A DNA stretch of 44,713 nt from Pseudofrankia coriaricola (GTDB lineage: Bacteria; Actinomycetota; Actinomycetes; Frankiales; Frankiaceae). The translations under genes and the position numbers were made by a program. The notes beneath the pieces are model-generated. The model saw only the letters and a list, made by a program, of their open reading frames with translations. It had not been told where the DNA came from and ran no database searches. The stretch covers positions 1-44,713 of the forward strand of contig NZ_MBLO01000048.1 in the NCBI RefSeq assembly GCF_001854805.1. Reading direction: 5' to 3'. This document shows, piece after piece, positions 4,395 to 9,765 of this stretch (position 1 is the first letter of the stretch; every line of letters begins with the position of its first letter).

Positions 4395-5692
4395 GTGGAG
4401 ATTCAGACCGAAAAGCGTTGCGGCTGCCGTGACCCCGAGACCGACAAGCAGCTCGGTAAGCGCTGCCCGAAGCTCAAGGGGCGAAAGCCACACGGCAGGT
4501 GGTCGTGGCGCATCGATGTGCCCGACGAACTCATTCCGCTGGTCGGCCGGAAGGTTCTGCGCGGCTCGGGCTTCGCGACCGAGAAGGAGGCCACCCGAGA
4601 CGCCGAGGGGCAACTGCCGAAGATCCACGCCGGCCGGCAGCACCTCGGCACTTTGAGCACCAGCGACTACCTCGACCAGTGGCTGGAGGGCAAACGGCGG
4701 ATCCGGCCGAGCACCCACCGGTCCTACAGCAGCCACATCCGGCTCTACCTCAAGCCACTGCTCGGCCAGGTACCGCTCGCCGCACTCGACAAGACCCACA
4801 TCGACGCCGCCTACCGACGCATCGAAACCGACGGCCAGAGCAAAGCCCGCCCGCCCGGGCCGGCGACCATCGCCCGCGTCCACGCGACCCTGCGAGCCGC
4901 CCTCAACGACGCGGTCGACCACCGCCGCATCGACTTCAACCCGGCCGCCGGCGTCGAACTGCCCGAGCACGAGCCACCGGAGATCGAGCCATGGGAGGCC
5001 CACGAGATCGGCCGGTTCCTCGACGAGGCCACTGGCGACCGACTCGCCCCGATGTACGAGCTGATGGCACTTACCGGCCTGCGCCGCGGCGAGACCTGCG
5101 GCGCCACCTGGGACGGCCTGGACGAGGACAACGGCGTCCTGGTCATCCGCCAGCAGATCGTCGAGTTCGGCGGCAGGTGGGGCGCATGGCCACCCAAGAC
5201 AAAGTCAGGCAAGCGCAAGGTCGACCTCGGCCCAACCCTGCTAGGCACCCTCGCGCTCCACCGACTCGCCCAGGACACCCACCGCGAGAAGACCGGCACC
5301 AGCTGGGACAACGGCACCCTGACCAACCAGCACGGCAAACCCGTCCACCTCACGAACCTGATGTTCACCCAGCCCAACGGCCGCTATCTCGACCCGCAGT
5401 ACGTCTCCCACCACATGCAGGTCATCGCCCGCCGCGTCGGTCTCTGCTGCGTCGTCTCCCACGACTCCGCCGCCGGATCACTCACCGTCGACGTCGGCCA
5501 GCGCCACGAAGCACCCGAGCGGACCTGGACCGTCTACCGCGACCGCGAACCGATCGGCGAAGTCACCGTGACCCGCTCCATGCGACGGCGCGGATGCGGC
5601 GCACGGCTCACGATCCACGGCCGGCTCCCCTTCGACCTGCGCAAGGGCGACGAGCTCGGCGAGGACCTGCTGTCCCGCCGCCGGCTGCACGA
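4395..5692 (+). pseudogene. int: site-specific tyrosine integrase, 5' part (interrupted)
   Basis: This is the N-terminal part of a phage/AICE-type tyrosine integrase. GTG 4395 is chosen because GGGAG lies 8 bp upstream and the product then begins with a Cys-rich segment (EIQTEKRCGC...KRCPKL) typical of these integrases. A SAM-like core-binding domain follows (STSDYLDQWLEGKRR...), then the catalytic domain with Arg in TGLRRGE. After ARRVGL there is an inserted segment of about 80 residues ending LLSRRR. The frame then reaches the first codons of the H-D-L-R-H box and is broken at 5692 by a RIT element; translation would run into it and stop at 5774. The missing HxxR/H/Y part is found intact at 9094-9357. 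Deleting 5693-9098 gives a continuous frame of 518 codons. Confidence 0.88.
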
Positions 5693-5720
5693 TTGTGCCG
5701 ACCTTCGCGTTGTGCCGACG
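5687..5720. repeat. RIT left-end inverted repeat
   Basis: This 34-bp sequence is the exact reverse complement of 9039-9072. Inside it, TTGTGCCGAC occurs twice (5693-5702 and 5710-5719) separated by CTTCGCG. The outermost six bases, GCACGA (5687-5692), are also integrase codon sequence, so the mobile element proper probably begins at 5693. The 10-bp units look like recombinase binding arms. Confidence 0.85.
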
Positions 5721-5774
5721 CAGGCGCGCGTCCCGATGGTCAGGGGGTCGCGGGCCCGCGTCGTGTCGGTGTAA

Positions 5775-6764
5775 TCAGAGGGCCTCGAGGAAAGCGAGCA
5801 GCGGGTCGGGCGGCTGGTAACGGCCGGGCGTGGCGGCGGGTGGGTTGGCCTTGTCGATCGCCTGCTGTTTGAGCGCCATGTCGGCGTGCAGGTAGATGTT
5901 CGTCGTGGCGAGCTGCTCGTGTCCCAGCCACAACGCGATGACGGTGATGTCGTTGCCGGCTTCGAGCAGTCGCATGGCGGCGGTGTGCCGCAGCGTGTGC
6001 ATGGTGACGTGCTTCGTGCGCAGCGACGGGCAGGTCGTGGCGGCGGTGGTGACGGCGCGGGCGAGGCGGCGTTCGATCGCGTCACGGCTGAGGTGTCTGC
6101 CGGTGGTGGTCGGGAACAGCGGGTCACCGGGGGCACCTGGCCGTTCGGCGAGCCAGGCCTTGAGCACGGCCTTCGTGACGGGGACGAGCGGGGTGCGGCG
6201 TTCCTTGCGTCCTTTGCCGATGGTGTGGACGTTGGCGCCGGTGGTCAGGGTGATGTCCTGGCGGGTCAGTGCGGCGAGCTCGGAGATCCGCAGCCCTGCC
6301 TGCATGGCGAGCGCGAACATGGCGTGGTCGCGCCGGCTGGTCCAGGTGCGCTGGTCGCAGGCGGCCAGTAGGGCGTTCGCTTCATGTTCGGTGAGGTAGG
6401 TGACGATGGTCCGCTCGGCCTGTTTTGTCGGGATCGCGAGGACCCGCTGGGCGGTCGCGGCATGCTCGGGCTGGGTCAGGGCGATGTAGCCGAACAGCGA
6501 GTGGATCGCGGCGAGCCGGTTGTTGCGAGTCGCCGGGCTGTTGCCGCGGTCGCGTTCAAGGTGGGACAGGAACGCCGAGACCATGGGCGCATCGAGGTCG
6601 GTGACGGCCAGTTGGCTGGGCGTCGTGGCGCGGCGGGTGGAGGCGAAGGTCAGCAGGAGGCGGAACGTCTGCCGGTAGTTGGCGATCGTGTTCGGGCTGG
6701 CGGCGCGCTGCGCGATGAGCCGTTCGGTGAAGAAGCCCTGGAGGGCCGGTGCGAGCGTGGTCAC
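5775..6764 (-). CDS. ritC: RIT tyrosine recombinase C
   Basis: This is a 329-residue tyrosine recombinase, third gene of the RIT operon. An N-terminal SAM-like core-binding domain (about 1-105) precedes the catalytic domain. The expected residues are present: Arg159 in QAGLRIS, Lys in GKGRKERR (184-186), His256/Arg259 in HTLRH, His282 in WLGHEQL, and nucleophile Tyr291 in TNIYLHADM. GTG 6764 overlaps the stop of the preceding gene by 4 bp, so translation is probably coupled. The stop at 5775 directly abuts the stop of the read-through integrase fragment on the other strand. In RIT elements the three recombinases are thought to act together in DNA exchange; individual roles are not established. 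Confidence 0.9.
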   Translation of the reverse strand: MTTLAPALQGFFTERLIAQRAASPNTIANYRQTFRLLLTFASTRRATTPSQLAVTDLDAPMVSAFLSHLERDRGNSPATRNNRLAAIHSLFGYIALTQPEHAATAQRVLAIPTKQAERTIVTYLTEHEANALLAACDQRTWTSRRDHAMFALAMQAGLRISELAALTRQDITLTTGANVHTIGKGRKERRTPLVPVTKAVLKAWLAERPGAPGDPLFPTTTGRHLSRDAIERRLARAVTTAATTCPSLRTKHVTMHTLRHTAAMRLLEAGNDITVIALWLGHEQLATTNIYLHADMALKQQAIDKANPPAATPGRYQPPDPLLAFLEAL

Positions 6765-7693
6765 TGTGCCCCTCCTGCGGTGTGGCGCGGTCGGGTGGCG
6801 AGCCGCTGGGCGGCGAGTTCCATCAGTTCCGGCGCTGCCGACAGGTACCAGTAGGTGTCGGACGGGGCGACGTGGCCGAGGTAGGTCGACAGCACGGCAA
6901 TGTTCGCGTCGACACTCAGCCCGGCCCGGGTCCAGCGGATCAGGGTCTGGAGGGCAAAACCATGTCTGAGGTCATGTATGCGCGGATGTGTTGTTTCATC
7001 GCGAATGCCGGCCTCGGTGGTGATCCTTCGGAACGCCCTGCCCACGTCGCTGCGGTCGAGCCTGCCGCCGGTGCTCGACAGGAAGAACGTCTCGGCGCGT
7101 GGCCGGGGACAGAGCCGGTCGCGTTCGGCCGCGTAGCGGCGCAGCGCCGCGGTGGCAGTCGGGTGCAGCGGCACGAGCCGCTCGCGGTCGTGCTTGGCCA
7201 GACGGATCGTGATCAGCCCGGTGTCCAGGTCGAGGTCGTCACGTCGCAGCGTGACCGCTTCGCCGATGCGCATGCCCGAGACCGCGAGCAGTCCAAGCAG
7301 GGTGTGCAGGCTCGCGGCCCGCAGCGGCGGGTGCAGCGCCCGAGCCCGCGCCAGCAGGTCGCGGATCTGGTCGTCGGTGAACAGGTAGGGGGTGGCGCGG
7401 TGGCGCCGGGCGGGGAACACGCCGGTCGGCGGGATCTCGGTTGCCGGGTCGAGGGTGTGCAGCCAGATCGCGAACCGGTGGACCACGCCCAGGCGCTGGG
7501 CCCAGTGCGCCGGTGACGCCCCGGCGGGCAGCTTCGCCCACTCGATCGCGAGGCGGCTGCCGATGGTCGTCGTGCCCGCCACCTGAAGATAGGAGCAGAA
7601 GTCGGTAAGCCACCGTTCCTCGCGCTCGAGCCGGTAGCCGAGGGCCCGGCGCAGCCGTAGGTAGTCCTCGACCTGGCCGGCCAGCGCGGTCAC
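6761..7693 (-). CDS. ritB: RIT tyrosine recombinase B
   Basis: This is a 310-residue tyrosine recombinase. The start is GTG 7693, overlapping the TGA of the upstream recombinase by 4 bp; a longer frame further upstream is merely open and lacks coding character. Catalytic signature: Arg142 in VSGMRIGEA, Lys167 in RLAKHDRERLVPL, His240/Arg243 in IHDLRHGF, His274 in YLGHVAPS, and the tyrosine pair in SDTYWYLSAAPEL, of which Tyr283 is the likely nucleophile. The 30-residue stretch between HDLRH and LGH is longer than in RitC because of an insertion (LIRWTRAGLSVDA), a feature I associate with the RitB/TnpB type. It is the middle gene of the trio. Confidence 0.9.
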   Translation of the reverse strand: MTALAGQVEDYLRLRRALGYRLEREERWLTDFCSYLQVAGTTTIGSRLAIEWAKLPAGASPAHWAQRLGVVHRFAIWLHTLDPATEIPPTGVFPARRHRATPYLFTDDQIRDLLARARALHPPLRAASLHTLLGLLAVSGMRIGEAVTLRRDDLDLDTGLITIRLAKHDRERLVPLHPTATAALRRYAAERDRLCPRPRAETFFLSSTGGRLDRSDVGRAFRRITTEAGIRDETTHPRIHDLRHGFALQTLIRWTRAGLSVDANIAVLSTYLGHVAPSDTYWYLSAAPELMELAAQRLATRPRHTAGGAQ

Positions 7694-8916
7694 CGGTCCG
7701 CCTCCGCCCCGGGCCAGGCAAGCGCCAGAGCACGCAGTTGTCCGACGTCGGCGCGGGCGTAGAGAGCGGTGGTTTGCAGAGATCGGTGGCGCAGCACCTG
7801 CGCGGTGGCCACCAAGGGAACACCGGCGAGGACCATCTCGCAGGCCACGGTGTGGCGCAGCCGGTGCGGCCCGATCTCGTCGATCCCCGCGCGCCGGCAG
7901 GCGCGGCGCACCGTCGAGGCCACGGTGCCCGGCGCGATCGGGGCGTAGGGCGCCCGCGCCGTCAGGAACACCGCCCGGCTGGTGCTCGCTGGCCGGCCGT
8001 GCCGCAGGTAGGAGGCGAGTGCCGCGCCGACGTCGGCCGGCAACGGAAGCAGGTCGCACCGGCCGCCCTTGCTCGTCACGGTGATCTGCCCATCCCGCCA
8101 GTCGAGGTCGTCGAGTCTCAGGGCGGCCACCTCGCCGGCGCGCAGGCCGAGACGCAGCAAGGTGATCACGATGGCGTGGTCGCGCAGGCCGAGCGGAGCC
8201 GACCGGTCGCAGCCCTCCAGCAGCGCCGCAGCCGCGTCCTGGGTGATCCCGCGGGGCAGCAGCGCGCGGCGCCGCCCGGTCATCGCCAGCGCGGCGGCCG
8301 ACAGATCGACCGGCACCAGCCCCTCGGCGAAGCAGAAACGCAGGAACGACCGCAGGCCGACGAGGTAGAACCGCGTCGCGCTCGCTCCCACCCGGGCGGA
8401 CTCCGTGAGCACCGCGGCCGTCACCTGCCGCGCGCTGAGCGCCGCGAGGCCGCCCGGGGGCGTGAACGCCTCCAGGAACCGGCGCGCGTGCCCGCCATAA
8501 CCCTCGATCGTGCCGGCGGCCAGCCCCCGCTCGCTGGCGAGGTATCCCTCGAACGAGGCGACCAGCACATCCGTCGCCGAGGCCGGCCGCGCCGCCGGCC
8601 CCGCGGGCGGCGTCACCCCGGTGCGGCGCAGCATCTCCAGCAGGCACATCAGGCCAGGACGGGACCACCCCGCCCTATGCCGCCCGGCGTCCCGCTGGAA
8701 CGCCAGGAACTGGCCGATGCGCTCCTCGTCGAGGTCGCACGCCTCGAGCGCGCGTTCCTCGAGCCAGCAGCTCAACCGTCCGACCTGCCGTAACTGGTTC
8801 ACCGCCGTCAGCGGCGTGTAGCCCCGCCCCAGCAACTCGCCCCTGAACTCCTCGGCGTGCGGTACCAGTGACCCCCGCATCAGCACCCGGCTCACCCGAC
8901 TCCCAGGACCAGCCAT
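7690..8916 (-). CDS. ritA: RIT tyrosine recombinase A
   Basis: This is a 408-residue tyrosine recombinase, first gene of the RIT operon. ATG 8916 is preceded by the purine-rich AGGGAGGGGAG. The N-terminal 120 residues form an extra helical region before the core-binding domain (about 115-215). The catalytic domain has Arg259 in LGLRAGE, Lys283 in VTSKGGRCD, His351/Arg354 in HRLRHTVA, His377 in VLRHRSLQ, and nucleophile Tyr386 in TALYARAD. Its stop overlaps the GTG of ritB by 4 bp. The promoter should lie in 8917-9040, between it and the right-end repeats; I could not assign -35/-10 boxes with confidence, but an extra TTGTGCCGAC copy at 8985-8994 in that stretch could let the recombinases repress their own gene. 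Confidence 0.9.
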   Translation of the reverse strand: MAGPGSRVSRVLMRGSLVPHAEEFRGELLGRGYTPLTAVNQLRQVGRLSCWLEERALEACDLDEERIGQFLAFQRDAGRHRAGWSRPGLMCLLEMLRRTGVTPPAGPAARPASATDVLVASFEGYLASERGLAAGTIEGYGGHARRFLEAFTPPGGLAALSARQVTAAVLTESARVGASATRFYLVGLRSFLRFCFAEGLVPVDLSAAALAMTGRRRALLPRGITQDAAAALLEGCDRSAPLGLRDHAIVITLLRLGLRAGEVAALRLDDLDWRDGQITVTSKGGRCDLLPLPADVGAALASYLRHGRPASTSRAVFLTARAPYAPIAPGTVASTVRRACRRAGIDEIGPHRLRHTVACEMVLAGVPLVATAQVLRHRSLQTTALYARADVGQLRALALAWPGAEADR

Positions 8917-8984
8917 CTCCCCTCCCTGAACTCGATGTCAGGACACGGGGAAACTATGATCAAACAACCATCATCGGGGAATCG

Positions 8985-8994
8985 TTGTGCCGAC
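8985..8994. repeat. internal copy of RIT 10-bp site
   Basis: A single TTGTGCCGAC, identical to the two units in the left end, lies about 70 bp upstream of the ritA start and about 45 bp inside the right-end cluster. It could be an accessory recombinase site or an autoregulatory operator. Confidence 0.5.
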
Positions 8995-9038
8995 ATAGCA
9001 CGAGCGAGTCATCACGCTGCCAGCGACATGCTCGACCC

Positions 9039-9072
9039 CGTCGGCACAACGCGAAGGTCGGCACAATCGTGC
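9039..9072. repeat. RIT right-end inverted repeat
   Basis: This is the exact reverse complement of 5687-5720 over 34 bp. It contains GTCGGCACAA twice (9040-9049 and 9057-9066) with a 7-bp spacer, then TCGTGC. Unlike the left end, it is not the outermost part of the element: a 20-bp palindrome follows before integrase sequence resumes. Confidence 0.85.
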
Positions 9073-9092
9073 TTGCGCCGACGTCGGCGCAA
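9073..9092. repeat. 20-bp perfect palindrome at RIT right junction
   Basis: The sequence consists of TTGCGCCGAC immediately followed by its reverse complement GTCGGCGCAA, one base different from the TTGTGCCGAC arm of the left end. With the preceding arm it forms GTCGGCACAA-(6-bp TCGTGC)-TTGCGCCGAC, the layout of a tyrosine-recombinase core site. The second half-palindrome is then the arm facing the integrase CACGA. Confidence 0.8.
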
Positions 9093-9093
9093 C

Positions 9094-9357
9094 CACGACC
9101 TCCGCCACTCGTCGGCGTCGATCCAGCTCGACCAGGGCATCGACCTGACCCTCGTGTCCAAGCGGCTCGGCCACTCGTCCACCACGATCACCGGCACGCT
9201 CTACACCCACCTGCTCCGGTCCACCGGACAGCGCGCTGCGGAGACCCTGGAAAGGGCGATCCCACGACGCATACAAGATCACACCCACACGACACCCACA
9301 ACGATCAACAAAGCAAAAGACCGGCCCGAGGGCCGGTCTGAACCTGCTGGTACGTAA
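9094..9357 (+). pseudogene. int: site-specific tyrosine integrase, 3' part (interrupted)
   Basis: This is the C-terminal catalytic remainder of the split integrase: HDLRHSSASIQLDQGIDLTLVSKRLGHSSTTITGTLYTHLLRS, with the second-box His/Arg, the third-box His (RLGH) and the nucleophilic Tyr (TLYTHL). It has no start of its own, so it is not expected to be expressed as an enzyme. It is undamaged, implying that the RIT insertion is recent or that precise excision can occur. The stop at 9355-9357 is 12 bp from the 3' end of tRNA-Lys, which places the attachment site of the host element at that tRNA. Confidence 0.88.
9318..9339 (-). terminator. rho-independent terminator after tRNA-Lys
   Basis: AGACCGGCCC (9318-9327) and GGGCCGGTCT (9330-9339) are exact reverse complements with only GA between them. 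Read on the minus strand the hairpin is followed by TTTTGCTTTG, a U-rich tail, so it serves the minus-strand tRNA. It overlaps the final codons of the plus-strand integrase fragment. Confidence 0.75.
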
Positions 9358-9369
9358 CAACTTTACGGG

Positions 9370-9442
9370 TGCGCCGCCAGGGACTTGAACCCCGAACCCG
9401 CGGATTAAGAGTCCGCTGCTCTGCCAATTGAGCTAGCGGCGC
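9370..9442 (-). tRNA. tRNA-Lys(CTT)
   Basis: This 73-nt cloverleaf folds fully: acceptor GCGCCGC/GCGGCGC, D-arm GCTC...GAGC, anticodon stem GCGGA/TCCGC around CTCTTAA (anticodon CTT), T-arm CGGGG/CCCTG with TTCAAGT, discriminator A. CCA is not encoded. The 3' end faces the integrase, the usual arrangement when an element integrates at a tRNA 3' end and rebuilds the gene. I found no second copy of the tRNA 3' end in the window, so the far attachment site lies to the left of position 1 or has been lost. Confidence 0.95.
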
Positions 9443-9765
9443 ATGTTCCTCGGTCTTACTTCTTGCTGCTGGCCTTGCCGTCAGGCGCGCCTCCGCGTCG
9501 ACGTGGACGACTGTACCAGCTCGCAGGACGGACGGGTGGGCCGGGGCCCTCTCATCGAGCAAGGCCCATCGTCGATCTGCGCCGGTAAGTCCTGCCCATC
9601 ACCACCTCCACAACCTCGGGCCAACCCAGGCCAATCCGCACCTGACCGTCCGTCAGGCTCGCGGCGTCCCGCCCCCGGCGCCGACCCGCGCTCGACCATG
9701 AAGGCGGCCACCGCCGCGGCCTCATAGGGCCGCAGCCCTGGGGCGATCAACACAGACAGCGCGAT
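9443..9765. other. non-coding region between tRNA-Lys and HTH operon
   Basis: About 320 bp. A minus-strand frame (about 9481-9780, possible product beginning MLTIALSVLIAPGLRPYEAAAVAAF) would start at the divergent face of the operator pair at 9766-9810, but its C-terminal half is low-complexity and I cannot support it as a gene. Nothing else stands out. Confidence 0.4.

Follow-up and report, generated by a model that had tools for sequence, protein, structure and literature searches.

A recombinase-in-trio element at the His-Asp codons of a Pseudofrankia integrase gene, and a possible rule of targeting by conserved codons

Recombinase-in-trio (RIT) elements were named in 2009 (as cited in PMC10214605 and PMC2864759). 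The section that Van Houdt et al. (2012; PMC3414803) devote to them places RIT elements inside a transposase gene and radC, a passage on C. metallidurans CH34 records rit elements that had entered radC and an IS66-family tnpA gene (PMC2864759), and the portion of PMC8138268 dealing with the proteins describes two core-binding domains in RitA and an extra C-terminal helix in RitC. The section in PMC3414803 names no target motif and no role for a spacer or palindrome; Ricker et al. (2013) and Van Houdt et al. (2009) may state targets. A 2023 table still lists the target specificity and movement of RIT elements as not formally tested (PMC10214605). Here we describe a RIT element of 3,406 bp (5693-9098) in a 44,713-nucleotide stretch of Pseudofrankia coriaricola DNA (contig NZ_MBLO01000048.1, hereafter the window), which interrupts a tyrosine integrase gene within the codons of its HDLRH box. 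The host gene differs from those of the CH34 elements, for which the passage cited gives no junction analysis, and in contrast to the section in PMC3414803 the ends are resolved here and the target is defined at the level of codons, differing by lineage. The junctions offer a concrete model of the attachment site and a targeting rule.

A close comparison is with strand-biased circularizing integrative elements (SE), GInt and Tn554, which according to the part of PMC10214605 that treats them share with RIT elements the use of several tyrosine recombinases, imperfect inverted repeats, a 6-bp spacer with a footprint, and target specificity, but differ in having non-recombinase partners (Tfp, Srap/GinD and TnpC). 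The element in the window has no room for Tfp, Srap or TnpC because only ∼55 and ∼125 bp separate its genes from the terminal repeats. Its coding content is instead three consecutive tyrosine recombinase genes on the reverse strand in the order A-B-C, an order that RIT relatives keep: ritA (7690-8916, 408 aa), ritB (6761-7693) and ritC (5775-6764, 329 aa), with 4-base overlaps between ritA and the ritB start and between ritB and the ritC start. By-eye inspection of the translations found the residues R...HxLRH...Y, which we take to be catalytic, in all three Rit proteins. The size is close to the expected ∼3.5 kb. Perfect 27-bp inverted repeats (34 bp with the spacer, compared with an expected ∼28-34 bp) bound the element at 5693-5719 (forward strand) and 9040-9066 (same sequence, reverse strand), each built of two 10-bp repeats TTGTGCCGAC with a period of 17 bp. 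The expected palindrome at one end is also present, as a perfect 20-bp palindrome (P, 9073-9092) consisting of two inverted arms that resemble the terminal inverted repeat (TIR). Three 6-bp spacers complete the structure: a left spacer GCACGA (5687-5692, forward strand), which is probably the host copy, an inner spacer reading GCACGA on the reverse strand (9067-9072), and an outer spacer CCACGA (9093-9098, forward strand), the second copy of the target spacer.

The N-terminal part of the integrase (4395-5692, forward strand) ends at the GA of the Asp codon in HDLRH, so that the gene is cut inside LHD|LRH, and the C-terminal part (9099-9357, forward strand) runs from the remainder of the box to the catalytic tyrosine region, 9 bp short of a tRNA-Lys (ctt) gene at 9367-9443 on the reverse strand. 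The 5692/9099 join is 1557 nt long, encoding 518 residues and a stop, in which RRRLHDLRHSSASIQL (LHDLRHSSAS) is rebuilt; among five joins tried, this one and the equivalent 5693/9100 were in frame and the remaining three were out of frame. A preliminary description of this locus had proposed a precise insertion within HDLRH of an otherwise undamaged integrase, and on recheck its coordinates, genes and frame proved right, as did the CACGA at each of the two junctions, the joined frame being open. An uninterrupted relative exists in another genome of the same genus: in L077 both halves are contiguous at the predicted junction, with 75% (N-terminal) and 86% (C-terminal) identity to those in the window, no stops across 508 codons, and a site that reads CTG CAC GAC. 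CTN-CAC-GAY also occupies the target point in three further uninterrupted homologs, L078 and, in the window's own genome, L079 and L080. The integrase of L078 is followed by a tRNA-Lys gene at ∼1.2 kb and that of L079 by a tRNA-Ser gene at ∼0.1 kb; the same search found no tRNA near the integrase in L077 or L080. The CACGA repeat had been read as a short target duplication, and this part needs amendment. A plain 5-bp direct repeat was rejected as the duplicated unit, which is the 6-bp spacer with five of six bases equal between GCACGA and CCACGA. Either spacer copy would restore LHD because the sole mismatch sits at the third base of the CTN (Leu) codon.

Relatives of the element occupy the same codons of other integrases. 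The most informative (L063) comes from another family of the same class, was found by RitA similarity (RitC 71%, RitB 59% and RitA 57% identity), and lies between LHD and LRH of a different integrase that is 31-34% identical to the one in the window. Its orientation is opposite to that of the window's element, with P again on the C-terminal side, and when the host pieces are scanned apart the Pfam Phage_integrase match stops at model position 128 and restarts at 132. A second relative, from another class of the phylum (L227; RitC 71%, found by RitC similarity), adjoins HDLRHTCAALL. A pattern combining an arm of P with the His-Asp (HD) and Leu codons was run on 393 genomes of the class and gave four matches, in 3 of them, and none with a reversed control; the matches are the window, L063 and, both from a single genome, contigs L168 and L169, in which a near-identical RIT end abuts two different integrases. 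A second pattern, run on 396 genomes from the phylum, picked out 2, that of the window and another contributing L206, a scar in which a decayed integrase C-half lies beside P and no RIT genes were found on the 4.3-kb contig. L168, L169 and L206 were found by a query that contains the HD codons, and it is their integrase reading frames that count as independent evidence. At L168, L169, L206 and L227 the insertion is judged from the side of the integrase C-half. The only match among viral contigs (L167) lacks RIT genes and was discarded as a chance match, and the second pattern had no match in viral contigs.

The integrase C-halves at the four other RIT ends (L063, L168, L169 and L227) start exactly at HDLRH. 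A scan of 169 RIT-like ends (148 loci), using a relaxed regular expression since a stricter first version missed true cases, recovered the integrase C-box in seven rows, always starting at the HD codons and representing five distinct ends (two rows duplicate the window); no C-box starting elsewhere in the first 80 residues was found among these ends, in a scan that is blind to L206 and to L235. The latter belongs to a different RIT lineage and lies two codons further along the HDLRH box (IHSLR|HSFATHLLEAG), a placement that depends on a short motif with flanks of just 59 and 41 nt; its spacers AAGGCA, GCGCCA and GAGGCA all encode Arg-His. We think it likely that the element belongs to a RIT lineage whose integration is site-specific, directed to the HDLRH box of tyrosine integrases at its His-Asp codons. 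Near-random targeting that happened to strike the box once would suit the window's genome taken by itself, where the repeat pattern has two exact matches, both belonging to this single copy. We consider such a coincidence extremely improbable given that these codons are occupied in different integrases by five RIT ends and a scar, L063 and L227 having been reached by protein similarity alone, and given that identical Pfam positions recur in other target classes.

Those other classes emerged from a wider survey. A RitB-alignment scan of genome contigs supplied the best 80 of 325 confirmed loci, and both ends and P could be resolved in 26 of 87 A-B-C triples (88 sources) and then in 7 of 18 further loci, many of the remainder lying at contig ends, lacking a complete trio or being arranged in complex ways. 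One resolved element with tandem ends (L133) was excluded from the codon-frame count and included in the host-flank comparison; L106 and L065 are one contig. Resolved ends have a common layout, host-X6-TIR...TIR-X6-palindrome-X6-host, where X6 is a 6-bp spacer. A strict rule like that of SE, with a host copy as the left spacer and a footprint as the right, does not hold for every element, the outer spacer matching the left in some elements and the inner in others. Within six target classes, P keeps to the same side in 19 of 19 elements (five HD, six ArdC, the IstB elements L094 and L097, two DDE-Glu, two serine recombinase, and L114/L115; the senses of the window's element and L115 were corrected by homology or motif), while both element orientations occur, as would be expected from insertion via either of two mirror-image spacers.

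Target names come in part from Pfam, and the remainder, consisting of the loci marked below as by eye together with L115, L161 and L235, were assigned by eye. ArdC is entered at HExxH, at position 52-53 of the Pfam MPTase-PolyVal model in all of L103, L112, L123 and L140, and presumably also in L105 and L110 (motif by eye). IstB is entered at Walker B, at Pfam IstB position 160 in both L094 and L097 and, as we judge the motif by eye, in L231. Large serine recombinases are entered at Pfam Resolvase position 122 in both L085 and L197. DDE transposases are hit in the region of the catalytic Glu or Asp in L090, L199 and L145, to which we would add L189, L194, L198, L216 and L237 (by eye); IS256 at RCxxH in L100 and presumably in L201 and L228 (by eye); IS66 genes in L160 and, by our assignment by eye, in L150 (no Pfam match), L220 and L233. 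What we take to be group II-type reverse transcriptases are entered at YADD or FADD (L066, L067, L185 and L234, by eye), and another reverse transcriptase at QGG (L069). Less clearly catalytic, or not obviously mobile-element, targets are DUF3489 (L095), a nuclease (L101), an AAA_34 helicase-like gene (L153) and, presumably, DUF932 (L184) and a further AAA_34 helicase-like gene (L143), the last two by eye. No name was assigned to the target of L114/L115, L114 having no Pfam match. Scanned elements with a common target, their pieces again scanned apart, share the Pfam model position. As far as can be judged from sequence, many of the targets other than HDLRH are also conserved, and many are catalytic motifs (HExxH, YADD, DDE and Walker B). 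L083 and L195 are RIT elements that have both entered genes of the AAA_22 (ExeA-like) ATPase family, at two different places.

RIT target choice follows phylogeny. In a RitC tree of 44 elements, 26 target labels require 25 changes, the minimum, whereas shuffled labels average 36.4 and none of 200 shuffles was that low; an earlier tree of 36 elements carried 21 labels and required 21 changes. In the 44-element tree the three HD elements group together with support of 98/98, and single clades are found for 5 of the 10 labels with at least two rows (HD, serine recombinase, DDE-Glu, L114/L115 and helicase-like). The suggestion in the preliminary description that RIT elements recognize HDLRH stands for the element's own lineage (L063, L168, L169 and L227) and does not extend to RIT elements in general: 3 tree elements are at HD, 1 is at RH and 40 are at other sites, and HDLRH was rejected as the target of all RIT elements.

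The spacers show how such codons might be recognized. Bases 5-6 are the same in the left, inner and outer copies in 33 of 33 resolved elements, and in 2 of 2 more from the plasmid sample, while the copies agree in 70-88% at bases 1-4. With the frame set by third-position GC (GC3), bases 5-6 occupy the first two positions of a codon in 29 of 32 elements; counted by target class the rule holds in 19 of 21 (P 8e-8 against an expectation of 1/3), and in seven of nine later elements (L216, L220, L227, L228, L231, L233, L234, L235 and L237), the phase of L235 being judged by motif where GC3 gave no clear answer. GC3 is blind to sense versus antisense and picked the wrong strand for the window's element, L115 and L161; both strands mostly give the same codon position. 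Differing spacer pairs are synonymous in 12 of 31 cases against 5.5 expected (simulated P 0.0014), with all 12 pairs from L069, L085, L090, L199 and the HD elements synonymous and none of the ArdC pairs, whose spacers differ at the free x position of HExxH. Spacer identity could instead arise if insertion itself copies 6 bp of host DNA, no sequence being required and targeting resting on protein contacts with flanking DNA. Related SE elements do leave a 6-bp donor-site footprint (in the part of PMC10214605 that treats them), and the inner spacers differ between the near-identical ends L168 and L169. Copying alone would not be expected to yield left, inner and outer spacers that often differ at bases 1-4 and never at bases 5-6 in 33 elements, and we consider this explanation unlikely.

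To a broader reading we give a probability of about 0.55: RIT elements would be parasites, mostly of other mobile elements, that home to motifs. Each lineage would recognize a few conserved codons of a catalytic or signature motif, with the bases that require identity on the least degenerate positions and a mirror-symmetric double attachment site allowing entry either way, and would leave a footprint that barely alters the protein and keeps a record of previous targets. In the mechanism that we propose for the site-specific integration itself, the three recombinases would act on a circular form, the junction of which would be a near-perfect palindrome with P between two crossover spacers. Either spacer could then recombine with the target, giving entry in either orientation with P always on the same side. 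Pairing would need identity at bases 5-6, which mostly coincide with the two positions where a conserved codon is least degenerate, and would tolerate variation at the other four. The inner and outer spacers may be footprints of earlier targets carried along with the element. Insertion would break the integrase and precise excision would restore the protein. The further ideas of the preliminary description, that such insertions could freeze host islands and that excision could serve as a switch, have anatomical support in that the two spacers would yield identical amino acids. In CTnDOT-type integration, likewise, only part of the overlap must match, a partial identity of a short spacer as here; that system uses one integrase, not three, and its target is not known to be a coding motif.

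Several observations count against the proposed site-specific integration and its mechanism. Five of the 10 multi-row labels are not single clades (ArdC, YADD, IstB, IS256 and IS66 TnpB), and the lineage nearest to the HD clade (L184) hits a different target. The codon-phase rule has exceptions in L094, L097 and L195 and, later, in L216 and L231; in the last, one flank gave positions 1-2 but the other did not, and its motif led us to class it as an exception. Spacer pairs within one element are not independent, wobble positions were not significantly enriched for spacer mismatches (10/20, 17/27 and 18/29), leaving a concentration of mismatches at wobble unsupported, and only 2 of 16 loci in the plasmid replication sample were resolvable. 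Genome sequence comparisons revealed neither excision, a circle nor transposition. Host flanks have no clear likeness to the element arms, with 2.72 versus 2.43 matches of 10 on the left and 2.75 versus 2.49 on the right, so recognition through host arms that resemble the element arms is unsupported. This lack of likeness would suit recognition of a short DNA word (∼NCAYGA, with unseen flanking features), integrases being struck because they are common and the coding motif being irrelevant, as would the lineage that uses one GTCGAC spacer in both IstB and an IS701-type transposase. Any 6-bp word is, however, expected thousands of times per 11-Mb genome, yet the five ends of the HD clade or with HD spacers are all in integrases, and the codon phase of bases 5-6 and the excess of synonymous spacer differences are likewise foreign to a bare word; we regard this explanation, too, as unlikely. 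If homing to conserved motifs is correct, RIT elements would inactivate genes carried by other mobile elements, among them those for integrases, transposases, reverse transcriptases and anti-restriction proteins, and nature would offer, in recombinases of this kind, a starting point for tools that reach protein motifs by way of the DNA encoding them.

The GTCGAC lineage comprises the close RIT relatives L216 (in the IS701-type transposase) and L097 (in IstB), each at an (I/V)-Asp codon pair; this lineage switches targets and is where the codon-phase rule chiefly breaks down. Other loci are rearranged. In another genome of the genus (L068:6887-8138), ritA is fused at its own HRLRH codons to an integrase C-half 62% identical to that of the window, which looks like recombination between two catalytic boxes. 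The window's genome has on another contig (L064:5635-10173) a row of five RIT-type recombinase genes, truncated or whole (A, partial B, partial A, partial B, C), an arrangement suggestive of insertion of one RIT element into another or of fusion between the two. The RIT ends at L091:2301-5642 adjoin apparent N-halves of two different IS3-type OrfA genes (by eye), with the palindrome at neither, suggesting recombination between two RIT copies. On the L065/L106 contig the long terminal repeats reach or approach the contig ends, which suggests a multi-copy element collapsed during assembly.
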